NCBI GenBank assembly: GCA_943704525.1 | Contig: CALSCQ010001451.1 | Location: 1-33,966, forward strand | From: Pigoraptor vietnamica | Lineage: Eukaryota > Opisthokonta > Filasterea | Direction: 5' to 3' | Length of the DNA stretch: 33,966 bases | Shown: positions 2,531-31,000 of the stretch, piece after piece | Layout of the letters: each line of letters begins with the position of its first letter | Numbering within the stretch: position 1 is the stretch's first letter | The notes under the pieces: model-generated | What the model saw: the letters and a program-made list of their open reading frames with translations, nothing else | Databases searched by the model: none | What the model was told of the DNA's origin: nothing | Made by a program: the position numbers and the translations under genes

Positions 2531-5500
2531 CTAACGCGAGACAATCGAGTTCATGCGCTGTTCCGCAGAGTCGAGCCGCGAGAGAATGCGGTCAAGACGT
2601 CCCTCGACCGTCTCGGGCACTTCGGACGACGACGCCGTCTTCAGCGACGCCGAGTCGACTTCGGGGATCGCCGGATCAGACGGCGTGCGGCGCGGACTCG
2701 TGGCATCCCCCTTCGCTACAGACTTGCGCTTCTTGACCTTCTTCTTCGGCGGGGCCGACGACGCGCCGTCGGGCTCAGGGGGCTTGCGCAGGGCAGCGAC
2801 CGCCGGCGGCGTGTTTGGGGCATCTTGGTGGTCCGCGTCGCCGATCGTCTCCTTCGCAAACGTCCCAACGGTGTCGGCCGAGTCCTGCGCCCCTTCGACG
2901 GGTCGTTCGCCCATGACCTCACGGATGAACTTGACGACAATCTGGAAGATGCCGTCCTCGTTCTGCGCGCTGTCCCGGATGTAGATGATCGTGTACGTCT
3001 CGATGAGAATGGCGATGAAGACCGTGAAGCCGACAAATAGGACGATCGAGTTGAACGACACGAAATAGAGGGGGCCGAGCAGGCGGTACTGGGTCATCAG
3101 CTCGTCGATTTGGAACACGCCGAGGATGATGTTGAGCTGCGTGAAGATCGCCTGGCCGACCGACCGGTACTCGGGCAGCGTGCGACCGAAGAGGAGGAAG
3201 CCGACTTGCGCGTAGGCCATAAACACGATGAAGAACATGAACGTGTACTGGAAGAGGTCGCGGCCGGCCACCGCGAACGCGCGGATGATGAGGCGGAGCT
3301 CCTTCGTGTGCCGCAGGAACCGGAACAGCAGCAGGACGGTGCAGAAGAGCGAGAACGCCAGCACAATCTCGCACACGGCGTCGGCGTAGCTGGCCGTGCG
3401 GAAGTCCGGGAAGCTCAGAGGGTTGCGTCGGTACGCGTCCAATGCCTTGCGCGCCTGGTAGAAGCGAACGCCGAACATGATGATAGCGACGACGTAGAGC
3501 AGATTGACGACGAGGTCGGCAATGTTCGCAATGTCGCGGAAGTACGGGAAAAAGCCCTCGCGGCGCACCCCGCGCACCTGAAGGGCGAAACGCACGCCCA
3601 CGGCGATCACAAAGCACAGCTCAAAGAAGAGGACGAGGTAGTCGGTCGGCGTCTTGTACAGCAGCAGCGTCGTCGACATGATCTCGTACGACGGGTGCGC
3701 GCCCCCGGACGGCGGGAATTCGACCAGCAGCGTCGCGACGAGGAACACGTCGGCGTTGGCGTTGTACGCCGTAAACTCGACAAACACGGCGCGCGTGTAC
3801 CCATCGAGGAATAGGTTCTGGCGCATGTTGCTGACAATGTCGGTCGACTGGTCGTAGGTGGGGCCGAGATTGACGATGAAGCCGCCGCCATGGTAAGTCG
3901 TCAGTCCGCCCCAGAACGAGCTGCCGCCATTGAACTTTTGCGGCGTGTAGACAAACGACGTGTGGTTCGGACCGCCAAACGGCGCAACGTCCTCGTTGTC
4001 GCTGTTGAAGGGTCCGCGACACGTGGAGACCTTGTCGCGGAAGTGCTTGTTGACGACGCACGTGCCTGAAGGAATGACGGAAAGGGGGGGGGGGGGTGAG
4101 CCTGCGCCTCCGAACAACATGCAAAGCCGAACCTCGAGCAAGATCGCACAGCCAACTCCAACCCTCAGCCCAACCAGTACGGAAGCGCACCTTCTCGCAC
4201 GCGCAGCTGTCTGAAGCGCGCGACCCCGAGCAGCTTCGCGTTGAAGTTTTCTAAAGGCTTGTGGTAGTCGTCGCCGTTGATGGTCGGCACGAGCACGTTC
4301 GACGCCCAGTCGAAAAATTCTTCCTGGGAGCTGATCTCCATGAACGACGATCCGTTGATCTCGGTCGTGACGAGCGACTCGCTGAACGCCTTGTTGACGT
4401 GGTACGGCTGCATTCCCCGGTCGATGTAGATGAGGACAAGCAGCAGCACGAGCACGGCCGCGTACACGCACAGCTCGCGCAGGACGCGGAGGTAAAACTT
4501 CTCCTTCGGCGTCCGCTCCTTGACCTGGTTCTCGTCGAGAAGCGACGTCAGCGAGCGGTTCATCTCGGAGAGTTTCTTCTTGGCGGCGGCGCTCACGACC
4601 ACCGCGCGGCTGTGGAGGTCGGCGAGGCTGCCAAAGTCCATCCGCACCGTGTGCTTGTCGCGCTTGATGACAATCGCCGCAAAGAACGCGAGGAAGAGCA
4701 CCTTGAGGGGCTGCGTGAGGAGGAGCGACTCGAGCAGCGAGAACATGATCGACCGCACCCACGCCGTCGCCTTCTCCCGCCCAAAGCTGAAGCCGTAGAG
4801 GACAATGACGTACGCCGCAAACGCCGAGACGAGGTAGCACCCGGTGTAGGCGATGTAGACCACCCAGTGCGGGAACTTGCGGATGCGGCGGCGATAGTAC
4901 GACACGACAATGGGGTCGACGCGGTGCTCCGCCTCCACCTGGCTGTTCTGCAGCGTCGAAATGTGCGTGGGGTCCAGCTTTCGCGTCGGCTCGTACCACT
5001 CCTGCACCGACTGCCACGCCGTCTTGCGCTCGAGCATCACGGGCTCGTGCAGGGCGGGCGCCGCGGCCATCTTGAGGGGCGACGTCGGTTCAGCGGGCCC
5101 ACCGGCGCCCGCGGCAGAATGGCCGTTCGAGCCGTTACCGGTAGCCGCACCGGCGCCGTCGTTGACGAGGAAGTCGCGCCAGTTGTCGAGAACGGACCCG
5201 CGCTTTCCGCGCTTGGCGTCGGGAAGCGACTCCATTGCGTCGAAGGCTGGGGGAGGCGGCGCGGGGCCCGTCGCAGCGGCATCCGGGGCTGGGGCCACCT
5301 TCATGGTCGCCTGCTTGACCTTGCTGTTGCGGAAGAGGAAGACAAAGAAAATGTTGATCGGGAACGCGATGAGTCCGGACACGACGCCGACGTAGACGTC
5401 CTGGGCCGAGAACGCAAAGGCCTCGGACGTGTCCGTGCGCGAAGTCTCGTAGAAGGCCATGTTCACCGCCATCACGCTGAGGAGCAGCGAGAGACAGCAC

Positions 5501-8500
5501 GTGATGCGCTGCACGCGCGTGAACCGCGACCGCTCCGGCTTGCCGTACACCGAGAACCACAGGTGCTGGTCGCTGAAGTCCGACTTGGTGTTGTAGATGA
5601 TGCGCGTCGTAAAGCGGTTGTACTTCTCCTCAGTCGAGCGGGGCACGTCGCGAATGGCGCGCTCGTTCACCTCGAGGCCCGCGCTGGACATCCACCCGTT
5701 GCACAGAAAGTACCACACCATCCCGGTCGCCTTGTTCCGCACAATCACGCGGTCCACGTTCCACGTCCGCTTCGTCCCCGAGCGGTCGAGGCCCAGCCGC
5801 ACCTTCGTCAGGTCGCCGAGGTCGTTGCGCGTCGACACGAGGAAGCGGTCGACCGCCCCGCGCTCAAAGTGCTTGACGAGGCCCGTGTCCAGACAGCGCG
5901 TCGCAGAGGACCCGTTCTCGCCAAACAGTGCAATGCTGACGCGGCAGTCCGTGCCAGAGCCCGGCCGAGAGCTCGTGTGGATGGCGACCTCGTACTTGTG
6001 CCAGTCCTTCGGCGTGCGGTCGTCGCGCGGGGGCAGGAAACCCACGCGGATGCGGTCGAGGTTGTCGTAGCGGCGCGCGATGATCACGGCGATAATGTAG
6101 ATGCCGAAGGCCGTCATGATCATAGCAAAGCACACGGGGTTGTCCGCGAGGTGCGTGAACGCCACGGCGTCGTCGATCAGGTCAATCTTGTTCGGCGCGA
6201 CGACGAACTCGCCCGCAAACGACGTCAAGTGGTCGCAGAGACACACGGTCGCGTTGTACGCCGACTCTTCCGAGACCGTGCAGCCGTCCGTGAGCCACGC
6301 CTGGGCCTTCGCCGACCAGAAGCGGCACGAGAGTCGCACGACGGCGTACGAGTACTCGACGGCGACCGCGTTGGCCGTATTGTCGAGAACCATTTGCCAC
6401 TCGCCCTCGCCAGGCACCGTGATGATGAAGCTCGCGGGGTCCGAGTCCGAGTAGGGCCGCGAGGGGGACAGGTCCACGGTCGCCATCTGGTCGTTGTCCG
6501 TGGCCGAGGGCTGCCGTCCGTGCGCAACGTACGCCTTGACGAGAAGCGCAGAGTCCGTCGCGTTCGCCTTCTGCTGGTCGGCCTGCTGGGCGTCGGCGCG
6601 CTTCACGGGGCGCAGCCACACGCCCCACGATGACCCGTGGTAGCTGGACGGCGCCCAAAAAGTGTGCTTCACGCGCGACGACGCGGGAATCGTCTTGTTC
6701 CCGTCAAAGTCCTTGTCATTTGTCGGACGGGGAATGACGAGCACAATCGGATCCGCGACGCCAGACACGTTCAGGTGCACGCCGGCGGGCCCAAACAGCG
6801 TGTACGAGATGATCCAGGGCCCAAGGCCGGACGCCGTCGCAGCAAAGTCAAAAGGATTCGTCTTGAACGACACGAGCGACGCGTCCACAGTGTCGTACGA
6901 CACGCCGCCAAACAGCGCCGACGAGTTCGCGGGCAGGCTCACGGCGGCGCCGGACGACGTGTACGAGTCGCCGAGGTCGTCCGCGCCGTGCTTGGTCGCG
7001 ACAATTTCCATGATTTCCGTCTTGATCGAGACGTCCTCGCCGGGCTCGCGGTTCGACAGGATGCCCACGGACATGGAGTCGACCGCCGCCGTCGTCTTGT
7101 CTGCCACGATGCGCTGGGTCGCCGCAGCTTCGCGGCGACGGCGCGTGTTGGGGTTCGGCCCTGTTCGGACGACATAGCGAACCAGGTTTGCGGAGAGCAC
7201 GTTCGAGATGCCGTCTGCAAGCAAATTCGCAGTGTTGTCGGTGAGGCCATTAATGCCTGCCAGGGACAGCTTCGCGATCGAGTCGATCGCCGCCGTCTGT
7301 CCGGACCCCGTCAGCTCGTCCGGATTCGACGTCACTTGCGAGATGAGGTTCGCAAACTGGTTGATCTGGCTTTCGTCCGCCGACTGCACGACCTGCGTGA
7401 TCGACTGCACGCCCTGCAGCAGCGCCGTGCGCAAGTCCGCGCGCTGGTTGGCGTCCACCTCCGTCGAGTTGCTCGCGGCGACGCTTGTGAGAACGGAGAC
7501 GGCGACCGACACGAGGCCCACGGCGTCGTCGGTGCTGCCGGACTGCACGAGCTGCGTCAGCTGGCTCGAGTTACCGACGGCGAGATTGGTGAGCGTGGAG
7601 AAACTGTTCGCGACCGACAGCTCCTTCACGACCGCTCTGAGCGGCGTCGGGTCCGTCTGCGCGCCGAACCTGTCCTCGACAGTCACGGCGAGGTCCACAG
7701 TGTAGTTGCGCGACGAGTCGCCGACAGGGAGGAACGTCGACGCCGTGTTCTTCTGCGTGCGAGAGAAGCTCACGGTCTTGCCGCCCGACGTGTACGAGAA
7801 CGTGTATGTGAGGGGCATGTCCGTCGGGTCGTCCGTGAAGTTGTCGCACGTGATCACAAACTGCGTCGACAGGACCACGCCCTCCGTCGGCGATATCAAG
7901 CACCCGCCCACGATGGGCGGAGTGTTGACCACCTTGGCCAGCTGCGCAGTGCCCGTCGCACCCGCCAGCGTCACCCTGACGCCGAACACGTACGTCTCGC
8001 CCGGAATAAGCACGTTCTCGCGAACCACGAACGTGTCTGACGACGCGCCCGTCACGGAAAAGGCGGTGCCCTGCAAATCCACGCGGCGCGGCTGACCCTT
8101 GCCGTCGTTCACGAACCACCGGTACGTCGGCTGCACCTGCTTCGTCCCGCAGTTCGCGCTGCACACCGCACGCAGGCGCAGGCGCGTGTTCGGGGAGGCC
8201 TTCTCGGGACAGTCGCCGGTGCAGTCCACAGACACAATCGGCGGCGATCCAGCCACTGCGACCACAATCGTGGACGTCGAAGCCGAGCGCCCGTCGGCGG
8301 TCGTCACGTTCACACCAAAGAGATACGAGCCGACGGACGTGAGCGCAGCGGGCGGCACGGACAATTGCGCGGAGCGGCCGTTATCAGAGAGGACAGAGTC
8401 GTCACCGAAGCAGCTGCCGGCAGCCTCTTGGTCGATCGGCGTGCACGACCACTTGTAGAGCAGCTGCGTCGAGGGATCGTCCGGATCCGACGAAGACGCC

Positions 8501-11500
8501 GCGTTGAGGGCGAAGGCCGTGTCCCACGGAACAGTGCGCGACGTGCCTCCCGCAATCCGCGCCACGAGGGGGCTGCCGACAATCGTGACGTACGTGAACG
8601 TCGTGGCATAAACAAGGGGACTGGAGCCGACCATCTCGCCATACACCTCCACGCGGACGGTGCCAGCCGGCAGCGACCGCGCAAGGATAGTCAGCGTCTG
8701 GAGTCCAGTCGCGCCGTTCAACTTGACGGTGTCGCCGGCGGCATTCGTCACGCGCCACTCGTACCGCAGGCGGTTGCTGCTCGTGCAGTTCGTCTTGGCC
8801 GATGCGGTGAGAGCAAATCCAACCGACCGCAGGAAGGTGTTCGAGGCCACCGCAATGCTGAGGACGGGCGGAAAGCAAGGAGCTGTCTGGACAAAGGCGA
8901 CCGTCTGCGTCCGGGCGGCGCTAACCGCGTTCGATGCCACCGCGCTTATCACGTACGAACCCTCCGACGCAAACGTCCCCGACAGCGAAACGCCCGACGC
9001 TGTCGTCTCGCGCCCGCTCTCCGAGAACGCGCGCTCGGCGGGAAGTTCAAACGTGAAGTTGGCGGGGAGGCTGGCCTTCGCGTCGAACGTGATCACGGAA
9101 TTCGGCAGCGTGGGTCCCGTGTTCGTCAATTTCAACGACACGCACCCGGGCGACTTTGCCCACTGCACGCACACCGACGTCTGCGACAGCGCAACCACCG
9201 ACGCGGATGTCGTGTGAGTCGCGTTGACGCCGAGTCCGCCGAGAATGGACACCTTTGCCGTGAACGCCCCGTCCACAAGATAGCTGTGGGCCAATTCGAC
9301 GTTATACGGAGTGACCCCAGGCCCCTCCTCCTTCTGTGTCACGGGGGGAAGCGTCCTGAGAGTGGGCACGTCGCCATCGCCCCAATCAACCGCAACATAA
9401 AGCGTCACCGGCGCAGGCGCAATGAACAGCGGCAAGCGCACGGTGCGCCTCGTCACGTCGGGCGACGCCGAGGGAGACACGAAGCCCAAAAAGAAGGACG
9501 CCGCCTGCACCGTCGTGCTCACAGACTGGCTGCTGATGTCGTTGAAGACGGTCAGGTTCACCGCGGCGGGGCCGGGGCGCAGGAACGCGACTGTGGGCGA
9601 CTGCGCGGTCGACGTCGCCGGGGAGCCGTTGGCAAAGGACCACGCAAAGCGAAGGTTTGTCCCGGTAGTCGTCGCGGTGAAGCTGACGGGAAGTCCGATC
9701 GTTACCGAGGTAGGGGTGGCAATGGCCGCCTGGCCCACACGCGTCTCGACGAGCACCGTGTACGTCAGCGCCGCAAAAACAAAGCCCGCAAAGTCGTACA
9801 GTGAGACGGTGACGTTGTAGGAGCCGGCCGTCTCGTACACGTGCGTCTGCGTCATGGCGGTGGACGGGGCAGAGCCGCTCTTGTCGCCATAATCGTATGA
9901 GAAGAAGACATTGGGCACCGACTGAAGGCTCGAGTCCTTGACGACCGCAATGTTGACGATGCTTCCAGTAGCGACCGCTTGGATGGGGGACAGCGTGAGG
10001 AGGGGCGGGTACGGCGGAATTTGGAACCCCGCCCACGCAGACCTCGACGACACGTTGTTGTACGCGATTACCGAGACGTTGTAGAGGTCGATCTTCGTGA
10101 AGAGGACGAGGGTGTTGGGCACCGTCGTGTTGACATACTTTTTCCCATTGACGAACCACGCGAAGACCCCCGCGACGCCCGACACGACGGCGTTGCACTG
10201 CGCGGGCACGCCGGGCTGCCCCGAAGTCCCGTTGCAGGTGAGCGTCACAGACTTGATCGCATCCTCCACGACAAAGGCGGCCCTCGCCGAAGCGGATCCG
10301 ATTGGGTTGCTCGCGTTGACCGTGACGACGTATTGGCCGGGATTCGAGTAGGCGTGCGATAGCCCAAACACAGACGCGTTGTTGCCCAGCACGTTCGGGG
10401 TGGTGAGATCACCCCAGTCAATCGTGTACACAATGTTCGGTCCGCCCTTCGCCACCTCGGCAAACACGAGCGCGCGCGATCCGACCTGCACGAACGCAGT
10501 CGTCTGCGATGGCGAACCGACGCCGACCGAGAGGCTTGTCGGAGGGGAGCCCGCGTCAAACTCGAACCGCACCGTAACGGCGGAGACGTCGTTGCTCGCC
10601 GTGACGGACCCGTGGACGTGCGCAACGCTGAAGAACGTGCGCTCCGGCTTCTGTCCGGACACCTTGCCCCCTTCCGCGTCGTCAAACGACCAGTCGTACG
10701 TCACATTTGTTCCAGTCGCGATCGTCGCCTGCATCGTCACGGGCACGCCGACGTCAATCGTGTTCGGGTACGACACCGAGAGGCCCGAGATGCGCTCTTC
10801 GACCACCGCCACCGCCCTCAGCACGCGAGTCTCAAACGGCGTGGTCACCGTCACCTTGACGTTGTAGACGCCGGCGGTCGAAAACAGGACCACGTGGAAC
10901 GGGCTGTTCGTGAGGAAGGGGCTCGCTTCGTCGCCATCCACCTCAAACAGGAAGCTCTCCACGTGACCCGCGCTCACCGTCACGGTGATCGGCCACGAGT
11001 CGCCTGCAGCCACCGTCGGAATCGTGGCAATCTGGCCGACGAAGGGCTCGATGACCGCCACACTCAGAGTGTCGTTCGAGGACGAGACGCGGTTGGAGCA
11101 CGTGACCGTCACGTCGTAGTTACCGGCGGCCCGGTAGAGGTGCGAAACAACAAAGCCAGTCGCTTCTTCGTCGTCCCCAAACTCCCACACACAGTGCGTC
11201 GTCGTCGCGTCCACTGCCGAAACCGTGAACGTCGCCGTCGTGTTCAGGGCAATGATGCGTCCGGACACATCCGCGGTAACCGGGTCCACGCGGCGCTCCA
11301 CCGCGACCGTCTGCCGCGACTGCAGCTGCCCGGCCAGGTTCGACGCCGTCACCAAAATCTCGTACGTGCCCTGCGCCCCGTAAATGTGGGCCACGTCCTT
11401 GACGACAGCGCGGGTGGCACCAATCTCGCCGTCCCCAAAGTTGACGACATACGACACATTGGATCCGGCGCCGACGGTGGCGGTGACGAGGACTGGGTCG

Positions 11501-14500
11501 CCTAGCGCAACCACGGGCGGCGCGACGCCAATGTCCACCGACGAGATGGGAACGACCACAAAGAAGTTCCACACGAGCGACACTGCAGAGACGTTGTTGG
11601 CGGCCGTCACGCGCGCCCACTGCCATCCAAAGGGGCCCTCCTCGCCAACGGAGCGAGTCACGGTCGCGACGTCGGAAAACACCGCGCCGTCGGAGAATGT
11701 GTACGTAAAGCGCGGGCGGGTCCCGTCGGCGGTCACAGACAGCGTGTAGGGCACGAGCGGGATGACCGTGTCAAAGTCCGGCCTCGACACGGACACGCCG
11801 CGGATCCGTTCTTCGACGTGCGCCAACAAGTATGTCGCTGCACTGGAAACGGGGTTCACCACCTCCACCGTGATGTTGAAATCGCCCACGGACTCGTATT
11901 GATGCGTGCTAAACAAGCTCGTGGAAGGGTCGGAAAACCCGTCGCCCCAACGAACATCCACACCGACGTCCGTGCCCGTCGCAATCGTCACGGTAAGGTT
12001 GACGGCGTCGCCGAGCGCGCAGAACGCGGGCGTGACTACAGCGCGCATCCCGGAAATGGCGTCAAAGACATTGACCGACAGCGTCGTCGATTCGGTCGAA
12101 ATGGCGTTGGAAGCCGTCACCGTGACAAGGTACATGCCGATCTCGGTGAACGCGTGCGCTGCATCAGGGCTCGACGACTCGTCCGCGCTCGTGCCGTCGC
12201 CCCAATCAAAGCGGTACGTCACATCCGTCCCTTCGACAATCCTCGCGTTGAGAATAAGCGCAAAACCCGTCGTCGCCTCCGGGGCCGGCCCTTGGAGCAC
12301 GGTGAGCGACGACACGGGAACCATTACGTGGACCGTAAACGTGATTTGCGTCTCGCTCACGAAATTGTAGGCGGTGACATTCACGGAATACGTCCCCGGG
12401 TTCTCGTACATGTGCGACGCGCGAACCGACTCCGTTTTCGAGTCGGTCGTGTTGTCGCCCCAATTCCAACGGAACGAGGGCTCCGTGCCCTCAGCGAGGC
12501 CGACTTCCACCGCAGCGACGTGACCATGCGCCACGTTCACGACCCCCTCCAACGCGAACAGTCCGGACACGGGCACTTGCACCACCGCGTCCATGGTGAG
12601 AAACGCCCGACTGACGTTGTTACTTGCCGTTACGTTCGCGCTGTAAAGGCCCGACTGCGCGTACGTGTGCGTCGCCGACGGTACGTCCGTGGTGGCCGTT
12701 TCGCCGTCGCCAAAGTCCCACAAGAACGTCAGATTCGTGCCAGATAGCAGCGCGACGGAGAAGGCGTACGGTGTCGCCACACGTGCCATCACCTCTCCGC
12801 CCAGCAGAGCGATCGTAACCCGCTCCATCACGCTCACGGGCATCTTGGCGCTGGCCGCACTGATGTTGTTCGACGCCGTCACGTTCACGACAAACACGCC
12901 GACCGAGGCGAACGCGTGCAGCACGCTCGGGCTCTCCGACTGCAGCGCGTCCGTGCCATCGCCAAAGTCAAACAAGTACGACACGGCCGTCCCCTCGCCC
13001 AACGTGACCGAGAGCGGGAAGAACGCGCCTTTCGCCGCATACAAAACGCCGGCCACGGACGGCGCAAGCCTTTCGACAGGCTCGAGCACACTCACGGCGA
13101 TTGCGATGCTTTCTGAGCTCACGCTGTTGACCGCAGACACGTTCACGTAGCGCACGCCGACGGTCGCGTACGTGTGCGTGGCGCTGGGCGTCGAAACAGT
13201 TGTCAACTCGCTCCCGTCCGCCCATGCAAATCCGTAGGTGACGTTCGTCCCTGCGTCAATCGACACGTTGAAAGTGAAGGGCACGTTGCGCCGAATCGAG
13301 AGGACGTCCCCGTATCCCGACGACAGCCCGGAAACCTTGTTGAGCACGCTGACGCTGAAAATGACCATCTGCAAGGTCACGTTGTTGTACGCCGTGACAT
13401 TGCCAACGTAGTAGCCAACGTCCGCGTACGTGTGATTCACGGCGAGCGTAGACACGGACTCGGCGGCGCTTCCATCGCCCCAGAACCACCGGAACGTGAC
13501 GTCACTTCCCGAAAGCAGCGTCGCCGCAAACACGGTGGGTACTCCGCGCACGGCGAGCTTGGGCGAGGCAAACGTCAGCGCCGTCCCCGTGATCCGCTGC
13601 GAGACAGTGACGCCGACGAGCGTCCACACCGAGCTGACGTTGTTGTACGCCGTCACGTTCATGTAGATGATGCCTTGCGTGACCGCGTGGTACACGTGGC
13701 CGAGGGTGCCGTTCGCCGGATCGAGCACCGTCCCGTCGCCAAAGTCCCAACGGTACGTCACGTTCGTGCCGGCGGCGAGCGACGCGGAGAACGTGAACGA
13801 CACGCCCATCGAGAGCGCAAGGGGAAATTCGTACGGGAACGTGAGGCCCGACACCTTTTCGATGGCGCTCACAAAGATTTCCTTGGACGAGTGACTGATG
13901 TTGTTGGAAGCCGCCACGTTGATGGTGTAGAGGCCCACCGCCGTGTAGGCATGCGTCTCGACGTTGTGCGTGCTCGTGGTCGTCGTGTTGTCTCCCCAGT
14001 CCCACGTGAACGTCACGTTGGTGCCCGAGGGAATCGAAACAACGAACGACAGGGCCGTGTTGAGGGGTAGCGAGACCAGGCTCGGATACGCCGCCGTCAT
14101 CACCCCAATTCGCTGGATGACGCTCACCGCATACACGAGGCTGACCGCACTGATGTTGTTGTACGCCGTGACGTTGACCGACACAACGCCCAACTGCGTG
14201 TACGTGTGCGCCGGCGAGACGTTTGTGTAGTTCTCGGAGACGCTCCCGTCGCCCCAGTCCCATCGATACGTCACGTCCGTCCCCGTCGATATGTGCGCGG
14301 CGTGGCTGATTCCCACGTTCTGCGGCAGCGAGCGCGGGTTCCCGTAAGGCACCGTGAGGTTCGTAATCCTCTCCATGACGCTCACTCCGACGAGCACCGT
14401 CTCGGAGCTGATATTGTTGTACACGGTGACGTTCAGGTAGCGAAAGCCGATGGCCCCAAACGTCAGCGGCGTGACCGACGAGGAGCCGACGACAACGTCA

Positions 14501-17500
14501 TTTTCGCCGTCGCCATACACCCACACAAACGTCGTGTTCGTGCCCCCCGTAAGGGACACCGCGAATGTCGTCGCTTCGTTGAGCGGCACAGAGACGGGGA
14601 ATGGGTAGTTGGCCGTGAGACCGCCGACGCGCTCCATAACGCTGACGGCGACGGAGGCCGTCGACGTGCTGACGTTGTTGTGCGCAGTTACGACGACATT
14701 GTAAAGCCTTGCCGACGTGAAAGTATGGCTCGCCGTCGCCCCCACGTCCACCGAAGTCTCGCCATCGCCCCAGTCCCACGTGTACAGGAGGTCGCTGCCG
14801 GTGATGACGCTCACGGAGAACGCGAAGGGCTCGTTGACGGCGATGGACAGCGGGTTATCATACGCCATGGACGCGCCCGACACCGCCTCGTACGAGCGAA
14901 CGACAATGTAGGTCGACTCGGTACTGACGTCGTTGCCCGCCGTCACGTTGATGGCCCACATCCCGACGGAATTGTACGCGTGCGACTGCGACGGGTCCGT
15001 CCCGTTCACCGGAGCGCTCCCGTCGCCCCAATTCCAAATGTACAGCAGGTCGCTGCCGGAGGTCGTTGACACCTCAAAGTTGAACGGGTTCCCGACGGCG
15101 ACCGGCACGGCGTTCACGTACGACGACGTCAAGCCCAGCACGGGGCTCTCCACGTGCGCCGAAATGTAGGCATAGTCGAAGCTGACGTTGTTGTACACGG
15201 TGACCGTGATGGAAAACCTGCCGGGGGCGGTGTACGCGTGCGTTGCCGCACCCTCCGCCACATCCGTGCTGTCGCTGCCGTCGCCCCAGTCAAACGAGTA
15301 CCGCACGTAATCGCCGAGGGCGATCGAGACAAGGAACGTCGACGGGGCGTTCGTGCGGAGGACGACGTCGCCATTGTACGGGGCATAGGCGCCGACGACC
15401 GGGTCCAGGATAACAATGGGGAACTGCAACCAAACCGCGCTGATGTTGTTGAAGGCCGTCACGTTGATGATGTAATAACCGTGCAGGGTGTACCGGTGCG
15501 TGGCCAGCGTCTCGGTTCCCGAGGACGACACACCGTCGCCCCAGTCGAACGAGTAGTACACGGGCGTTCCCGTCGACACCGCCGTCGATATAGTCACGTC
15601 CGTGTTGATGGCAGCCGCGGCCGCCGGGCCGAGCGAGTTGACGAGATTGCTCACGGGCTCCTCCACGTAAAAGTTGTTCCACGTGTGGTAGGGATCCGTC
15701 GTGTTGACGTTGCTTATCAGGCGGTACGCAAGGTTGTAAGCGCCGGGGCTCCCGAACGTCTTGCTGACAGACCCGCTGCGAATGCCATCCTCGATGGTAT
15801 ACGCCACGGGGTCCTCGCCGTCGATGCCCCACGAAACAATGACCTTCACGGACGTGCCCGTGTCGTAAGCAAAGAAGAAATCGACCGTCATGGTGTCCCG
15901 GCGCTGCGCAAACATCGCGCCATAGCCCGTCGGGAGGTACTCGTCCGCGCGCACCACCATCTCCGCCGTCTCACTATCGCCCAGCGGATTCGTCAACGTG
16001 ACGGTGGCAACGTAATCGCCGGCCTGCGTGAAGACAACAGTCCCCTCATACTCGGTCCGCTGGACGTCCGCAGGCCCCGTGAACGACCACGTGTAGGAGA
16101 TGAACGAGCCTGTCGCCTCAAAAAGGAGATTGACGGTATCCCCGACGCCCACGTGCACGACGTCATCCACTTCGAGGCCGGAGAGCGTCTCCACCGCGGT
16201 GAACGAGCTGGTCGACTCCGCATTAACGTCCCCCTGCGTGACGTACGCCCGCGCCGTCCACGTGCCGCTCCGCGATGGCGTAAACTGGAACGGCTGCAGA
16301 GACGCTGCGTCGACGTCATCCACCTCAAACGTCTCCTCATACCCAGACTGGTGCGTGAAGGTCCAGTAGATTGTTACGTCACCCACGGCGTCCGTGCTGA
16401 CCGTAACGTTCGCGGGGGAGCCCATGCGAACGTAGCCGGCAACGCCAACCGAGACTGTCGTGAGGCTCGCTTCGATATCGACGTACGCACTGGCGGACAC
16501 TGTGTTGTCGTCCACGAGGAGATTTGTCGCAGTGACGCTGACAAGAAAAGTTCCCGTGACACGCGCCGAATACCGCAGCACCAAGACGACGTCGCCGTCG
16601 ATGCACATCGCCGCCGCCGCTTCGTCGCTAGCAAAACAGTCAACGGCGCTGTCGACGCAACTCAATGAAGGGTTCACGCACACCCCCTGTCCCTGATCGC
16701 ACGAGGCCGCCGGGCAGTCTTGCACGTCGACAATTCCGGCGGGGTCGCCCTCAACAGCAAACGAGGCCGTAAAGTTCGCGCCGGCGCCGCCCGCAAGCGT
16801 CGTGGCGATGTACGCGAACCCACTCGCCGACGAGTCAAGCGCCGGCTCCGACAGCGAGTCGAAGGCAACCGCGGCGCTGTAGACAATCGTCGCCAAACGC
16901 GACGTGAGGTCGTTAAAGACGCGCAGCGTCGCCTCCAAATTCGTTCCCTTCCCAGTGGGGATGAAGCTCAGTCCGCCTGCGCGAGGGCTTGCAATCGTCG
17001 CGGAGAGCCCCAGGCCGACGGCGGCGGCGTTGCCGGGATTGACCGAGACGCGCACACCAATCTCCGTCACAGAGTCAATGTCCGCGATAACGACGTAGGC
17101 GCCGGGTTCCGTGTAGAAGGGGTCGTTGTACGCCCTCACGACGGCCGTGGACGTATGCGTGAAACCGATCAAGTCGCCCGCCTTAACGCTAATGTGGTAG
17201 ATGGGGTCGAGGTTCTCGGTATACACCTCATTGAAACCGGCGTTGCTCGTCACCTGGGACTGGCCAACGAGCTCCAGGAGGAAGGGCCCGCCGCTGGTGG
17301 GACCGCACGTGTAGCCGTTGATGCGGCACTCCATCGTGCGCGGGCAGTACGTGTAGCCGCTCGAGCACGACATTCCGCACACGGGCTCGCGCGGGTCCGC
17401 GCAAACCTTCGCGCTGGCACAATACGTGCTCGCGGTGCACGTCGACTGCACTTGCACGCAGTCTTCCTCAGCGACCACGCACACCGCCGAACTGCCGGGG

Positions 17501-19049
17501 CCGTTCCAGTTTGTGCAGAGGTACGGCGTTTCGTCCGGACACACGCGTCGCCATACTTGCAGGTAGACGAGGCCCGATCCGGCGGCGCGGAGGGACCATG
17601 ACGTCAGAAACCCGTCGTCCTGGATGGCGTCCGTGACGATGAACGTCATTAGCGAACCCGCGTTCGTGTTGCACCGCGCCGAAGGGCCGACGCCAACAGT
17701 TGAAACAGGCGAATCTGCGGAGGGAGAAGCAGGAAGTGAGCGACGCACGGCGATGACATCTCAAACAAACGGCTTAAGAATTCGTTTTCAGGTTAACAGA
17801 AAGCCTGTGAGTTACAGACGGTGCCCCCACCCATGATGTTTTTCGCCAGCGTAGCACCGTCGTACGACAGTTCCGCCTGTACGGCAGTCCCCGAACTGAG
17901 ATAGTAACTCAGCGTCGTCGGCACTCCGACCACGAACTGGTTCGCTAGCAGCGACAGAACGGGATTAGAGGGCCGCACAATGACGGTAATTCGGCCAATG
18001 TAAATGGACGTGCGCGTGAGCGACGCCGACGTCGTGTGCGCCATCACCAGGACCTCGTAGCTGCCGGTCGTCGCATACGTGTGGGAGAGTGTGATGTCGT
18101 CCATCTGATCGGCATCGTCCACGACATCGGAAGCGCCGTCGCCGTAGTACACCTCCACGAGCCTGAACGCCGCCGGACGCGCCGGCAACAACAGCTGCGC
18201 CTGCGCGACGCCGTACTCGACGACGCTATCGTGTTCCACCGTGAGCCCCTCCACGTAATCTTGCGTGGTGACGACAGCGGTGTAGCCCAAGCCGCCAAAA
18301 TCCGACGCCGTCTTTGCTCCCGTGAGCAGGCAGTGCGACGTCGCCACCCTCGCCGAACCGCCGGGCGACTCGTCCAAGCAGAGGCACGTGACGCCGTCGA
18401 GCATCCCGGCGAAGTCGAAGCCGAGGGCGCCGCAGCGCGCAGTGCACACGCGAACGCTCAAAAACAGCGAGTCGATCATCAACAGCGGGTTGACCGCATT
18501 TTCGGGAAAGCAGCCGACGTACATCGAATTGTACGCGCGCAAGCTCCACTCAAAGTGGCTGCTGTTGCGCAAGATGTAAGGGTTGTCGCTCTCGACGCGC
18601 GTGCACGCCTCCTCAGAGTGAAGGAAGACGGTCATGGCCGTGTGCCCATAAGAGAGCAGCGCGGTACCGCGGTACACGACGGCGCTGTCGCTGTCGAGAA
18701 AGTCGAGCTTGATGCGGTGCGGCAACACGAGACAGCGCAATTTGTACGTCACCGCGCCCCGAGCGTCGTCAAACGTCGCAACGGCCTCCTTCGTCGACGA
18801 GTCCATGACGAGGCTTATGATGTCCACGAAAGTTCTCGGGTTTACCGTGGGCGAATTCTCCGACCCAACCCACTGGCCAGCAATGGTCGAAGGGCACGGG
18901 CTCGTGCCGCTGATGGCGCCCATGCCGCAACCGGTCGCGTCCGCACACGCAACAAACGCCACGGCGAGAAGGAAGAGGCGAACGAGAGCGGCATGCGAAA
19001 AGCGCGCGACGGCGAGACGCGGCCGCTGTCGTACGCTAGTCGCACGCAT
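2531..19049 (-). CDS. Polycystin-1-like receptor/channel (WSC, PKD array, REJ, GAIN/GPS, PLAT, PKD channel)
   Basis: Exons 19049-17816, 17714-4191 and 4065-2531 (introns of 101 and 125 bp) join in phase and give about 5430 residues. Seen in order: signal peptide (1-38, hydrophobic core LVRLFLLAVAFVA); WSC-like cysteine domain (about 175-262); a first PKD repeat (about 275-358); a cysteine-rich stretch (about 470-550); an array of about 28 PKD repeats (about 830-3230) with the W-WGDG motif; a REJ module; a GAIN region ending in a GPS with intact CDHLTSF (about 4240); TM1; a cytoplasmic PLAT domain (about 4318-4420); TM2-TM6; the polycystin extracellular (TOP) domain; and six-helix channel segments to about 5280. 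The tail has a polybasic cluster and a final coiled coil. It resembles animal PKD1 (about 4300 residues, 11 TMs), but I see no LRR, C-type lectin or EF-hand. A surface sensor paired with a PKD2-type subunit is the expected role. The start is chosen for the signal peptide. Domain identity is sure; exact repeat count and boundaries are approximate. Confidence 0.95.
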
Positions 19050-19726: not shown

Positions 19727-21256
19727 ATGTCAGACCTCGAACCTCCGTCTCCCGAGTCCGATCATGACGATGGCGAAGCGACAGGGTCGGAGGAAGAGTA
19801 CGGAAGCCCGTACGAGGCCTGATGGCTCAAAGACCCGACCATCGAGTCTGTCCGCGAGGCAGCCGCGACAGGTGCGAACGATGACGAATGCATCTTCGTT
19901 GCAGCGTGCTGCATGGGTGAGGCGGACGTCGCCGGGAGCATGATGCGCCGCGACAAGAGGGCGGCCGAGTGGGCGCGCAGTGGCGAGGCTTTGTAGCCGC
20001 TGTGTGCGGGCAGGGCGAGGTGATTACGCGCCTGCTGTCCCTGGGCGCGGAACACAGGCTTTTTAAAACGTGCGGATGGCGGTACTCGCTGGCGGTACTC
20101 GCCGCCGGCTGTCGAGCTACGCCCCCCCCCCCCTGAGACTCTGATGGCTGGAGCCTTGTTCCTGGCGTCGAGGAGGGGGCGGCAGCAGCCGGCGGTTGAC
20201 GCTGCGAGCGACTCTGACGACATACAGTGGTACCGTATGGAGAATGCGGGTCGTGAGGTCGCCGCCGCCGTTTGCTACCTCGCGGAGCGCGGCGCCGACT
20301 TCTCCGTGCGTCACAAAGGTGGTACGAGAGTGTTGAAAATGGCGGCTCGGTCACCCGTACTGGCCCCCTACTGATTTGGATGTGCCTGGAGGCGCCGCAC
20401 TTGCCAACGCGGTCGTTGATGACGGGAACACACCACTTCATGTCCTGTGCTCCCACTACTTGGCAAACCGCGAACGCGCCTGCAGGATACTGCTGGCACA
20501 CGGGGCCGACGTCAGAACGCCGCAAACAGTAGTGGCGCGACGCCGGCTCTGTGGATGTGTTGCGCGGGCGGACTTGTTGACACCGTTCGTCTGTTACTCG
20601 ATACTGGGGCGGACGTCCACGCGACGAATTGCGGCGGTCTTACGGGGCTTCACGTCGCCGCGCAGTTACGGTATTCGGCGGAGGAAATCGTGCCCCTTCT
20701 TCTGGATGCCGGCGCGGACGATGTCTGGACAGACACCACCGTCGACCTCGCCATGTCCAAGGGACTGGAGAACAACATTGCGCCTTCGCCAACGCGGTGC
20801 GCAGGTGGGCGGGGCGGGCGCAGGCGGAGGGGGAGTGACGCCGGACGGGTTCGCGCAGATGGAGCTCTTCTCGGCGTGCGAGGAGGGCGATCTCTGGAGT
20901 GCGCTGCAGTTGCTGGACAAAGGGGGCGTTCTGCGGAAGTGCCTGGCGGTAGGCACCCGCGCGGAACGACGCCGTTCTTGCTGTTGGCGGCTCAGAACAT
21001 CGCGTCCTTCAACGCCGACGACGACGACGGAGCGGACGCAAGGGACGGCGAAGGGCCGCCGAGCGAAAGCGGGGATGAAATGGACGCGGCGGACGTCAGT
21101 AGTGAGGACGAGGACGTCGCGGGTGGAAATGATGTTGAGGATGTTGAGATGGAGGGCGGCAACGCCAACGCCGACGGCAGCGAGGGATCGGAGGACGATG
21201 AGGGCGATTCGGTGGGGGGTGGGGACTCCGTTGGCCGGACAGTTTCGACTGACTGA
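19727..21256 (+). pseudogene. Decayed ankyrin-repeat protein gene
   Basis: The frame opens with an acidic N-terminus (MSDLEPPSPESDHDDGEATG) and meets TGA at 19820-19822, yet the same frame continues with ankyrin-like helices (DPTIESVREAAATG). Further pieces lie in changing frames: FVAAVCGQGEVITRLLSLGA (about 19992-20051), REVAAAVCYLAERGADFS (about 20250-20305), GNTPLHVLC...ILLAHGADV (about 20415-20515), TPALWMCCAGGLVDTVRLLL onward (about 20540-20760), MELFSACEEGDLWSALQLL (about 20860-20915) and TTPFLLLAAQN (about 20970-21005), then a very acidic tail to the TGA at 21256. The join near 20510 (GADV then NAANSSGATP) is a clean frame change with no splice signals. I count one in-frame stop and about six frame changes, so this is most likely a pseudogene. 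Sequencing errors are the alternative: the spacing of hydrophobic repeat residues is still good. Confidence 0.75.
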
Positions 21257-22839: not shown

Positions 22840-24168
22840 ATGGCGTGAGTATCCTTCTTCGTTTCAGGTGGACGTCCGCAGTGGGGCGGCCACGTGGGAT
22901 GTGACGTGTGCAACACCGTGTTCGTCGCTGCGAATGCATGCGTTGATAATGAAACTTTAAAGTGAGCCTCGTCGCTGACGACCGCCCTTGCGTTTTGACG
23001 CGCAGCCCCGCATGTGTGGTTGCCTCTGGTGCGTACGCCGAGTTCCGCTCTCGAGGTTTCCCGTCCTATCACGCCCAGTCCAGCATACGGCGCTGTTGAT
23101 GCTTCCCTCCACGCAACACGCGCTCCGACAGCACTACTGAAAAAGACCCGACTACTTTGCGCGCTACTTTCGATACGTTTACGAGATAATTGACGAAGAA
23201 CTTTCCTCTACGACTACTACCGCTTGCGATCCTGCGGCGCCCGTTTTGACGCCGCTTTACGCACAAGAGAACAACACGACGACTCGAGGCGAACTCGAGG
23301 ACTTTGGAGTGGTGTGGCCGTCGCCTGCGACTGCCGCACACTCCGTATTCGAAGCGAAAATGATGACCGATCCGATGCTGGAGAACGCGACCGTCGAGTC
23401 GCTGTTCTCTGGCTTTGAGAACGTCGCCGACAGCTTTGTGCCTTCCGGTGAGTTGCGGACGCGCGAGAGTGGTTGCAGCTGTGACCTCTATAGACTAACG
23501 CGAGTCTGCGTGCGCAGGCTTTGAGTTTACGCTCGGCGCGGACCTTCTCGGCCTGCCGATGGACGAGGCTGTGGGCAAGACGACCCCTGCGACCGTCCCC
23601 GCCGTCCCGATCAAGCTCGAGGTGCCCCTGACGGGCGGCTGGATGGAGCGCTCGATTGCGCTCGGCGTGCTGGACGCCGAGACTATCCTCGCCGCGTCGT
23701 CGGCGTCTTCGCAGACGCTGAGCGTGCCGCAGTCGCCCCTGCCTTCGGTCGATCCCTCGGAGTCTGTGTACGGCGACGCTTCGTCGACCCGGCGGCGGCC
23801 CGGCAAGCGCCCGCTGGACACGGACGACGACAAGCTGGCGAACAAGCGCATGCGCAACCGTCTTGCCGCGCAAAAGTGCCGCATGAAGAAGGCGCAGGAG
23901 AGCATGAGCCTCGAGAAGCGCGCCGGCGAGCTCAAGCGCGAGAACACGGACCTCCGCGATCGGCTGTCCAAGATGCAGGCCGAGGTCGAGTACCTCAGGT
24001 GAATATTTTTGAATGTCTGCCGAGCCATACAATGCCTTGCGTTGACTTGTCTTGCGTTGACTTGTCCTTGTTAGTTCTGACATTACTTGGGGGGTGTTTG
24101 GCCACTGACGTCGTTTTGCATGTATGCTGTGCAGGAACCTCATCAAGGTCGCCGTCCGCAAGGATTGA
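22840..24168 (+). CDS. Jun/GCN4-like bZIP transcription factor
   Basis: Secure exons: (23360-)23447, 23518-23998 and 24135-24168, joined in phase across introns of 70 and 136 bp. Starting at the ATG at 23360 gives 200 residues. The basic region reads NKRMRNRLAAQKCRMKK, closest in memory to Jun (RKRMRNRIAASKCRKRK). The zipper has heptads L-L-L-M-L ending in VEYLRNLIKVAVRKD, then stop. The N-terminal part is acidic and proline/serine-rich, as in activation domains. It should bind AP-1/CRE-type sites as a dimer in the nucleus. The frame is open upstream of 23360 back to 23146. An aag acceptor there pairs in phase with ATGGC followed by GTGAGT at 22840-22844, adding 73 residues (MA then PDYFARYFRY...). 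That 5-nt coding exon makes a 273-residue protein and is my preferred but unproven start; its acceptor has a poor pyrimidine tract. Confidence 0.85.
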
Positions 24169-26032: not shown

Positions 26033-26674
26033 CGTCTTGGCGTGTTTGAGTTTTGCGTGCGAGCAATGCTGCGTTCGCGCGTGACTGGGGATGGGCGTGT
26101 TCGATTTGCGTACGGTTGCAACTGCGCGGTCGATGTCTTATTTCTTTAATCGCCTCGTTTTTCTCATTGTTTTTGTACATAAGTTTTGGTCATTGAGTTG
26201 ACGCTTTTCTTTGTTATTCGAATGATGCCTGTGTGTGCATGTCTCTCGCGGGCATGCACATGTATATACTCTCCTAGGAATCGAAATGAAGAATGTACAT
26301 ATGCGACTTTGCGCCTCGTATGTACGCTGCCAGACACGTGCGACACAGCGACACGAAGGAACCAGGGGTTCAGTACCCGGCTGGGTGCGCATGGAAGCGA
26401 GATTTCGAAACTTATTTTCCGAGTTCTCGCAATAATTAGCGTCATCAGAATGACACTTACCGAATGTCGGCATCCGACGCACACACGAGCACACGCACGC
26501 ACACGCACACACACACAACGTCGTACAAAAGGAGGCGCACGTGTGAATTAGATACATGCAAACCTTCAAGCCTACTTTCGACTCACTGCGAACAATAAGT
26601 GAATCATTGTCCTTGCTCCTCTCTGCGAAACGAGAGTCAGATTCAACCCTCCAACACCCAAACACTCGCTTTCG
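26033..26674. other. Intergenic region upstream of the NET-PRL gene
   Basis: It contains a weak TATATA (26263-26268) and a CA/CACG microsatellite (about 26480-26519). The long minus-strand ORF through here is antisense to the phosphatase and to CA repeats and is not supported as a gene. Confidence 0.5.
26480..26519. repeat. CA-rich microsatellite
   Basis: Interrupted CACG/CA run, CA on the plus strand, about 155 bp before the NET-PRL start codon. Confidence 0.85.
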
Positions 26675-27707
26675 ATGGGCACGACTACCGCCGCCGCACA
26701 GTCCGAGGCCGACCGCATTTCGCGAGACTCGCGCGAGGACGTGACCGCAAACGAAGCGCTGGGACCGCTTTCTTTTGACGAGAAGTACCAGCTCTCGATT
26801 GACATTTGCAAGCTCCCCGTCGCCGAACTCAACGAAATTGTCTCCATCATACGCGAATGCGCGCCTTCGTACCGCGGTCTCAAGAGCGACTCGCCCGGGA
26901 ATGCGCACAACGCGGACGAAATTGACGTCAACCAGCTCGATGATGCCACCCTTCGCCGCATCCAACAGTACATTCGCACGACGCTCGTCGACTATGGCGG
27001 CCTCCGCATTGTTATTATGGACTCGCCCAAGGCGAACAACCTCGCGAGTTACATCGAGCAGGTCTTCAAGAAATACAACGTAACGGACGTCGTGCGAGTG
27101 TGGGTAGCTGTGGAATGGCCGGCGCCTCGATGTGTTTGTCTCTTTTCCATAACACCCGTTCGCCTTGTCCACAATTTAATTCCAAGTCCGTGTGCTTCTC
27201 TTTGCGTCCTGGCATTGCGCCTTATTGTCCACGCCACACGTTTCACTAACAGCGCATCTCTCTCGTCCACTGTGCAGTTGCGACGCGCGTTACAGCCTCG
27301 GACAGGTCGAGGCACATGGCATCCGCGTCCACGAGTGGAAGTTCAAGGACGGCGAAATCCCGTCGAAGGAAATCGTCAACAACTGGATCGATCTCGTCGC
27401 GGATCGCTTCGATGCATCGCTTCGTAAGGCGAAGGAGGGGGATGGCAAGTCGTCCGCGCCTGAGTCGCCGTCTACGCGGCGCCCCTCGATTGCAGTGCAC
27501 TGCGCGGCCGGACTTGGACGTGCGCCTGTCCTCGCGTGCGTGGCTCTGATCGAGTTGACGGGGATGGACAACGCCGCGGCGGTGGAGTACATGCGTAACA
27601 TGCGGCCGGGCGCGATCAACAAGGCGCAGCTCGAGTGGCTGTTGGATTACAAGAAGCGCGGGAAGAGCACGTTTCTTACGCGCACGCTGCGCAAGATATT
27701 CCGATAG
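26675..27707 (+). CDS. NET domain - PRL (PTP4A) phosphatase fusion
   Basis: Exons 26675-27099 and 27278-27707 (178-bp intron, phase 2) give 284 residues. Residues about 31-102 form a NET (extra-terminal) domain as in BET proteins: LSFDEKYQLSIDICKLP, then EIVSIIRECAPS, then ADEIDVNQLDDATLRRIQ. From about 105 on the protein is a PRL phosphatase: DVVRVCDARY, WKFKDGEIPS with the likely general acid Asp166, and the active site HCAAGLGRAP with nucleophile Cys217 and Arg223. The Ala after Arg is the PRL signature. Cys143 matches the redox-regulatory cysteine of PRLs. Both domains are coded in frame within exon 1, so the fusion does not depend on splicing. A serine-rich insert of about 20 residues (190-211) precedes the active site. 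The protein ends in LRKIFR and has no CAAX box, so the usual membrane anchor is missing. NET domains bind short basic peptides of chromatin and viral proteins. A nuclear, peptide-targeted phosphatase is inference. Confidence 0.95.
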
Positions 27708-28019: not shown

Positions 28020-31000
28020 TCAACGACGATGGGACGCCGGCGGCCGAGCAATCTCCTCGGCGATGGCCTCGCACATTTCGCGGCGTTTCTGCGCCTCTTC
28101 TGCCTTCCGCAAGCTGCGGTGAACTTGAGAAGACTGTTGCATCACCGCCACGTAGCGCGGGTGGTTCTCATCAACGAAGCGGGACAACATCTGCGCGGCA
28201 CTGGCCAAGAGCGACGCGGCGCCGACCAGGTCATTCTGTGCGGCGCGCACCTTTCCGATTCGGAACAGCGTCTCTGCTACGTCCGGGTGCGATTCCGCGA
28301 CGCCCCTGAAGGCCGCAAGCGCTCTGTCGTATTCTCTCAGAGCCTCCCCCAGCATGCACTTCGCCGCGAGCACGTCACCGATGACGCGGCGTGCCTCTGC
28401 GACTTCCGGATGGCTCTCACTCCGGATGTTCGTCAGCGCCGTGAGCGCCTCGCGGCATGTCTGAAGGGCGCTGTCGTAGTCCCGGCGGAGAAGCAGAAGG
28501 CGACCATACTGCACCTTCAGGAGGGCCATGTCGGGGCCGTCCGCAGGGTGTGCTTTAGTCTCGAGCGCGAACGCATCCAAAAGGGCAGTCTTCGCCTCAT
28601 CGAGCAATCCCTGTTCCAGGCGGATCTTGCCGATCAGCAGCTTCGCGGCAAAATCGCCCCCGCCGTCGTCCACGTCGGCTGGCAGGGCGCGGCAGATCGA
28701 GAGCGCGTCCTCCGCGAACCGCAGCGCGCCGTCGTAGTGGGCCAGGCGATATTCGACCTCGCCGATTGAGAGAAGCGACCACGCAACCTGGGCGTTGTCG
28801 TCGCCGTTCTGCGCCTTGCGGTCGATTCGCAGTGCACTCTCAAAGTTCGCCTTCGCTTTGACGTACTGCCCCAGCGCGAGATGCCCGAGACCCAGCTCGT
28901 GGTGGATCTCGGCGAACGAAGGGTGCTCCGTGTCGCCGTTCCTGACGATTCGCATGATCCGGAGGGACTTTTTCACAGTCGCCATCGATTCGGAGAGCCG
29001 CCCGACCGCACGCAGCGCGCCGCTGAGGCTGGTGAGCAAGCACGCGACCTCACTGTCCTCTCCTTTCAACTTCCGCCGTATCGCCAAGGCGCTCTCGAAA
29101 GTCGCGATCGCCTGCGCATACTCGTGGCGACACGCGTGCATGTTCCCTTTGTGATGGAGCACTTCGGCGATGATGACGTGTTCGTCGCCGTGCAGCTTGC
29201 GGTATATCTGCAGCGAGGCGTCGAAATTCGCCAGGGCATCCGCATGCATGCCGCGTTCTTCGTAGGCGTCGCCCAGCAGTGACAGTGCCAGGGCGACGTC
29301 TCCGCTCTCCGCGTCGACCGTGCGGCAGAGAGAGAGGAGTCCCTGCAGCCGAGCAATCGCCGCGTCGTCGCTCTCGTCCGTCAGAATGTGACGCGAAAAG
29401 AGCATTCTGATGGCGTACTGCAGCAGAGGGTGCGAGGCGGGCACCAGCGCGCAGACGCTGTCCACGTGGGGCACGGCCACTTTCGCGCGCGCGCACGACG
29501 CCGCGTCATTCCGTTCGAATTCGAAGACGTCCTCGAGCTGCTCAAGCGTCGTGTCCAGCCACGCGTTCCACTCGTCCGTCGCCGCCTTCTTCGTGCGAAC
29601 GACACTCTGCACAAGCCTGTTGAGGTCGATTGTGGGACCCCATGGCCGCTTTTCCGAGTCCTCGCAAGCGACGCCCTCCGCGCCGGCGACATCGACCATG
29701 CCGTACGCGCGGAGCAGCGACAAGCCGACGCCGGCCGGGTCGGCGAGCTTCGTGACCCATTCCACGGGGATGTTCTTGTCGCAGAGCTGGGCGCACACGC
29801 AGAGCGCGTCCAGTGCCTCTTTGCCACCATCGCTCTCGGCGCCGATGCAGTCGAGCGCGATATCCCACCGATTCGACGTGCTCGCGCAGTAGTCCGTGGG
29901 CCTGTACGCGTCCCGGTCGCCGTCCGCATGCACAGCGATGGTGCCCTTCATCTTGGCAACGTACCCCGCGGGGCTCATCCCGACGACCGACGCGATGTGC
30001 CTCGCCGCGCCCGACAGCAGCAGCGGGGACCCGCAGCACTCCCGCACGATGTCCGCGACGGCCTCTCTGTCCCTCTGCGTCTTGGCGTCAAAGAACTGCG
30101 CGGCGGTGGCGTCGCACATACCCTCCAACTTGAAGGGCACAAAGTGTTGAGTGCGCGTGGTTGCATCCGCAAAGCAGCTCGTTACGATCACGTGCCCGCC
30201 GTGGGAAGGCAGGTACTCGGTCCAGGGAAATCGCGCGTCGCGGCTGCGGCTGTCGGCACCGTCCACGATGACCAGCCACTTTCCCTCGAGGCCACGTAGC
30301 CACGCACGCACCGCGGTGGCGACCGCAGCAGCCCGCTTTTCCCGCCCTCCAAAGTCGTCGTAGATGGAATTCACGACAGGCGAGAGACCGGCGCGCGCGG
30401 CAACATCGGCGAACGAGTCGGCGAGCTTTGCCGCGGCAACCTCGAACACCGCAACGTATTCGCGGCAGTAAAGCCGCGCAAACTCCCTCGCGAGGGCCGA
30501 CTTGCCGTAGCCCGGCAGCGAATGGATCCAGAGCGTCCCGACGTCGGAAGGGAGCGACGCGTGCTGGAGCGCCCGGTGCATGTCTTTCAGCTGCGCCTCT
30601 CTGCCAAAGAAGCGGACGCCCTTTCGAGGGCCAATGTCGACGAAGCTTGTCGCTGCTGCACGGCGATGGCACGCCGGTCAAGGATGCATGTAAACGAAAA
30701 ACCGGGGCTTACGGCAAGTGTGATGTAAATGGCCTTGGTGCTCACCTTGCGTGTTATGCGGCGCAATGAGTTTCACGGGTTCTGCTCCGTGGGCAATGTT
30801 GGCGACTATCCCCCCGACCCTTGCGTGAACGCCTTGAGGGATGCCTCGCACGTCCATCGAGTGCGCGTTTGCGTTTCCCACATCAGGCCCGTGCGCGGCT
30901 TCGGCAAACTGGCCGTTGAGGCTGCGGGTAACAGCGCGCACGCGGGGCGCGCGATCTTGGGCGTCGTCCACTTCACAGATTTGCCGCTTGGTGCGCACTT

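Follow-up and report, generated by a model that had tools for sequence, protein, structure and literature searches.

The phosphatases of the PRL group are single-domain proteins that are closely related to CDC14, as described in passages of PMC10040874. Nearly all related phosphatases carry a Ser or a Thr after the catalytic Arg, which aids the hydrolysis of the phosphocysteine, and the PRLs have an Ala at this position and form a long-lived intermediate (passages of PMC10040874). There is debate over whether PRLs function as enzymes or as pseudophosphatases that bind CNNM (passages of PMC5427921, PMC12132575, and PMC10040874). The NET domain, also named ET, is a component of the BET proteins such as BRD2, BRD3, and BRD4. 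Contig CALSCQ010001451.1 of Pigoraptor vietnamica (C596 of the 1395 contigs of a 32.5-Mb assembly), whose 33,966 nucleotides are referred to below as the window, includes a gene with a predicted product in which a NET domain is followed by a PRL-like phosphatase domain. As read from the sequence, this product keeps the catalytic residues, is missing the CaaX motif, and has a Pro in place of an Arg that in PRLs contacts CNNM. NET and PRL are each well known, and their combination is what is new within the literature searched; a NET-PRL fusion was not named in the titles and opening lines of abstracts listed from the open-licence PMC literature, although its absence from print is not thereby shown.

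Structure of the fusion gene

The gene can be read as two exons whose joined product consists of 284 residues; the splice sites are predictions from the sequence. Its features are the following:

26675-27099, + strand: exon 1 (predicted splicing), including the start Met, a leader of about 30 residues, the NET domain, and the start of the PRL-like part to residue 142
26765-26986, + strand: NET/ET domain, residues 31-104, with a predicted three-helix ET fold
27100-27277, + strand: predicted intron of 178 nucleotides, GTGGGT...GTGCAG, its length not a multiple of 3
27278-27707, + strand: exon 2, including the remaining PRL-like domain, the catalytic P-loop, a basic tail, and the stop codon

The coordinates, the single intron, the size of the product, the NET motifs, and the HCAAGLGRAP motif in exon 2 were all as claimed in the initial annotation. 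Its proposal that exon 1 runs without interruption from NET into PRL was borne out by the frame at 26675-27099. The PRL-like part starts at about residue 103-105, and the intron splits the codon of residue 142. The NET/PRL boundary falls within exon 1 in a single open frame, and for this reason a misread intron was rejected as the cause of the join. The third-position G+C content is 0.72 in the NET segment and 0.79 and 0.80 in the two PRL pieces; it is 0.54 in the intron and, in flanks of 300 bases each taken in the same reading, 0.44 on the 5' side and 0.52 on the 3' side. The closest in-frame stop upstream of the start is at 26600. No Met is found between residues 1 and 115 of the product and, because residue 115 already lies inside the PRL-aligned stretch, a start at Met115 would cut the PRL fold. 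By eye, the donor and acceptor resemble those of the two inferred introns (GTGCGT...CTGCAG and GTGGGT...GCGCAG) of a stand-alone PRL gene in the same genome.

The NET domain

A Pfam profile search of the 284-residue product matched the BET/NET family PF17035 to residues 31-101 with 44.5 bits, above the curated cut-off of 24.5 (expect value, E, 1.6e-11), and the ET domain of BRD3 among the PDB sequences matched the product with E 3.7e-8. The NET identity proposed from the letters of the sequence also agrees with the predicted structure: a fold search with the low-confidence model of exon 1 matched solved ET domains and covered about residues 25-110, and the model appears to have the three-helix ET fold. 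This comparison bears on NET and not on the PRL start in exon 1. A chance match to NET was rejected on account of the E of 1.6e-11 together with the fold match. Among the 10 best fold matches, the ET domains of BRD2/3/4 are 34-39% identical to the fusion NET, and the Taf14 ET is well below this range. Taf14 is not known to have a phosphatase domain. The fusion thus resembles the BET proteins by the sequence and the predicted fold of its NET, and differs from them in two residues of the strand (I652 is Asp and F656 is Val) and in the bromodomain, which Pfam did not find in the product at E <= 0.001. Because of the latter result it is not a BET protein.

The residues of ET that contact peptides, taken from passages of PMC5701133, were mapped by hand onto the alignment, the register being uncertain in the longer loop before the strand. 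In the helices, 6 of 10 pocket residues are identical (K615, S619, I622, L630, V634, and I637), and E653, I654, and D655 are kept in the strand. The pattern suggests that the peptide pocket is likely to be working but altered, and we infer by analogy with known ET domains that the fusion NET binds peptides.

The PRL-like phosphatase domain

The PRL-1 phosphatase (PDB 8ct8, chain C) matched residues 103-272 with E 1.9e-29 and 106 bits, which supports at the sequence level the assignment of the phosphatase part to PRL made in the initial annotation. The general phosphatase families of Pfam were weaker matches: Y_phosphatase scored 26.1 bits, over its cut-off of 20.9, and DSPc 31.9 bits, under its cut-off of 33.5; the NCBIfam search found 0 families. 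Exon 2 modelled alone gave a poor model, with a best mean predicted local distance difference test (pLDDT) score of 55.0. CDC14B2 also matched the product (E 1.7e-8, 38 bits, best stretch residues 211-264), and membership in CDC14 was rejected in view of the 38 bits against 106 for PRL-1 and of the PRL-type Ala in the fusion.

The positions were mapped to the PRL3 numbering used in passages of PMC5427921, the mapping being our own assignment. The P-loop HCAAGLGRAP, encoded by exon 2, includes Cys217 (C104), Arg223 (R110), and Ala224 (A111), the last being the PRL-specific Ala after the catalytic Arg described in passages of PMC10040874. Cys143 is at the C49 position and the Asp of WKFKDG at the D72 position. 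Since the PRL-type Ala is kept, a slow turnover of the phosphocysteine would be expected by analogy with PRLs. The likeness to PRL-1/-2/-3 (PTP4A) consists of the sequence of the catalytic domain, the HCxAGLGRAP motif with its Ala, the C49 equivalent, and the Asp72 position. The differences are the N-terminal NET, about 20 residues inserted ahead of the P-loop, the absence of CaaX, the WKFKDG sequence, and the Pro at R138. The fusion is described here as PRL-like and PRL-derived, not as a canonical PRL, because the CaaX motif is missing and because, with NET at residues 31-101, the predicted product is not a single-domain protein, the Ala being present.

Predicted absence of the prenylation motif and change at a CNNM-contact position

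The prenylation motif of PRLs (passages of PMC10040874) is absent from the predicted splice product, which has the basic C-terminal tail KKRGKSTFLTRTLRKIFR and ends in TRTLRKIFR followed by the stop codon. Pro252, the residue before GAIN, occupies the position of PRL Arg138, and the loop reads MRPG instead of the RRRG of the stand-alone PRL. According to passages of PMC5427921, binding to CNNM3 is deficient in PRL3 R138E, an effect graded as 'moderately impaired' in one place and as 'strongly affected' in another; no test of a change of R138 to Pro was found in these passages. Arg110 and Asp72 also contact the CNNM Asp (passages of PMC5427921), and both positions as well as the catalytic Cys are kept in the fusion. 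By analogy with R138E, CNNM binding by the fusion would be weakened. The tumour effect of animal PRL-3 has been tied to CNNM binding in passages of a preprint (PMC12132575). Because of the residue changes in the fusion, the label 'growth-linked', carried over from animal PRL-3 to this gene in the initial annotation, is doubtful.

Separate BET, PRL, and CNNM genes in the same genome

A scan of the assembly with PF17035 gave three matches in two genes, the fusion and a gene on contig C1008 (2533-5001 of the extracted region, - strand). In the latter, NET is split by an intron (E 1.2e-17) and is preceded by two frames with Pfam bromodomain matches, two stretches in one frame with E 1.2e-22 and a partial one in the next with E 1.2e-9, so that it reads as a BET gene. 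When the PRL part was searched against the assembly, seven matches were obtained at E <= 0.1. Two of them belong to the fusion itself, and two are weak matches elsewhere (E about 0.02). The remaining three are exons of the stand-alone PRL on contig C814 (- strand, about 53354-52519), whose joined product ends in the CaaX box CVIS and whose two inferred introns are at positions unlike that of the fusion.

The fusion is 42% identical to this PRL over 168 columns, and its NET is 35% identical to that of the BET gene. The intron of the fusion is placed differently from those of both genes, and the BET gene has an intron within NET, where the fusion has none. These identities and the differing intron positions point to a diverged extra paralogue, old rather than the product of a recent or artificial join, and on the same grounds an artificial joining, by the assembler, of the BET and PRL genes described above was rejected.

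The search for CNNM gave two matches in the assembly. The stronger one is on contig C1048 (876-2872 of the extracted region; Pfam CNNM E 2.5e-31), where a 66-residue piece of a downstream frame matches the CBS-pair structures of CNNM2 with E 1.2e-25 and includes DPFY. Pfam found 0 families at E <= 0.001 in the two downstream frames when these were searched alone, and the order of the frames suggests that they constitute one CNNM gene. By its spacing, DPFY is taken as the equivalent of the CNNM3 contacts Asp426/Pro427/Tyr429 given in passages of PMC5427921. The second match to the CNNM family is on contig C129 (11251-11688) and includes one in-frame TGA.

Possible function of the fusion

We consider it fairly probable that the product is a PRL-like enzyme or binder released from the membrane, and probably also from CNNM, that is positioned by its NET domain. 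The NET pocket would dock short basic-hydrophobic peptides, as in BRD3/BRD4, and the peptides bound would set the position of the phosphatase, or of a phosphate-trapping binder. The PRL-like site would then act on partners or neighbours of the NET ligands, plausibly in the nucleus; to place the product in the nucleus or at chromatin is a guess. The missing CaaX motif suggests that the enzyme has been relocated within the cell. A more specific proposal, which we regard as possible but rather doubtful, is that a PRL paralogue moved from the membrane and the CNNM magnesium pathway to the transcription machinery, losing CaaX and the CNNM-contact Arg, and that NET recruits it to the proteins that are ligands of ET.

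Several observations weigh against a NET-positioned PRL. Confidence in the exon-1 model is low, with a mean pLDDT of 59.9 for the best model and of 42.6-45.1 for the remaining four. The helix pocket has substitutions at four of its 10 residues: Y612 is F, K616 is Y (the ET chain used for the alignment has R at this position), N623 is C, and V633 is I. In the strand, E657 is Asn in addition to the two changes mentioned above, the acidic counterpart of D650 and E651 is absent from the alignment, and the preceding loop is longer. Because of these residue changes and the longer loop, the pocket may have another specificity or none. The WPD-like loop reads EWKFKDG in the fusion versus WPFQDG in the stand-alone PRL, which could change the activity, and the last 18 residues have a net charge of +8, so that the basic tail could keep the product at membranes without prenylation. 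A second genome with NET-PRL was not found in the viral and prokaryotic collections, a result that is silent on other eukaryotes: exon 1 gave 29 and exon 2 gave 16 pattern matches in the viral collection, exon 1 gave 310 in the prokaryotic genomes, and none was confirmed.

The charge of the tail is also the starting point of the view that the fusion is still a PRL of the membrane and magnesium pathway, with a basic and possibly amphipathic tail in place of prenylation, persistent CNNM binding, and NET as a cytoplasmic docking or dimerising addition. The Arg110 and Asp72 positions, which contact the CNNM Asp, are kept together with the catalytic Cys, the CNNM of the genome has DPFY, and the effect of R138E is graded unevenly in PMC5427921, Pro not being among the changes in its passages. 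However, CaaX is absent, the loop is MRPG with Pro at R138, and the genome already has a CaaX-bearing PRL that fits such a role; we judge this explanation unlikely. The phosphatase part might instead be mainly a pseudoenzyme, a NET-tethered binder of phosphopeptides or acidic loops with little turnover, as could be argued from the Ala that goes with a long-lived intermediate in PRLs (passages of PMC10040874) and from the change to WKFKDG, but the retention of the nucleophile Cys, the Arg, and the Asp72 position makes this quite unlikely. That there is no fused protein, the locus being a dead gene, an artefact of assembly, or the site of two separate transcripts on shared DNA, would be consistent with a case based on DNA and with an architecture carried by one genome in the collections searched. 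It is very improbable considering the boundary within one open frame, the coding-type third-position G+C on both sides of it, the absence of a Met between residues 1 and 115, and the modest identities to NET and PRL elsewhere in this genome, which do not fit a simple assembler join of those genes.

Without the anchor motif and the CNNM-contact Arg, with the catalytic residues kept, and beside a CaaX PRL and a CNNM, the fusion is a natural test of the debate about enzyme and pseudophosphatase. If the reading that involves the transcription machinery is true, the protein would represent a naturally occurring separation-of-function PRL, showing what PRL catalysis does without CNNM. The fusion also provides an ET domain outside the BET proteins, joined to an enzyme domain.

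Other genes in the window

The window includes intron-bearing genes and eukaryotic domains; Rfam and ARAGORN searches of it found nothing. Three adjoining frames at 2534-19049 (- strand) encode WSC, 20 PKD stretches, REJ, GPS, PLAT, a polycystin domain, and a PKD channel. Of the polycystin profile, positions 2-56 lie in one frame and positions 57-198 in another, and from this split and the order of the frames we infer one polycystin-1-type gene with the full animal-like order. Two frames at 1107-2185 (+ strand), probably exons of one gene, each match a portion of a kinase domain (positions 172-204 and 202-257 of the PK_Tyr_Ser-Thr profile). Ankyrin repeats are found at 20447-21253 (+ strand; Ank E 4.3e-9) and an exon of a bZIP transcription factor at 23559-23999 (+ strand; bZIP_1 E 5.1e-11). 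Downstream of the fusion, an 853-residue frame at 28023-30581 (- strand) has many TPR repeats (TPR_12 in seven stretches) and, by eye, a nucleoside triphosphatase-like start, LPGYGKSALA.
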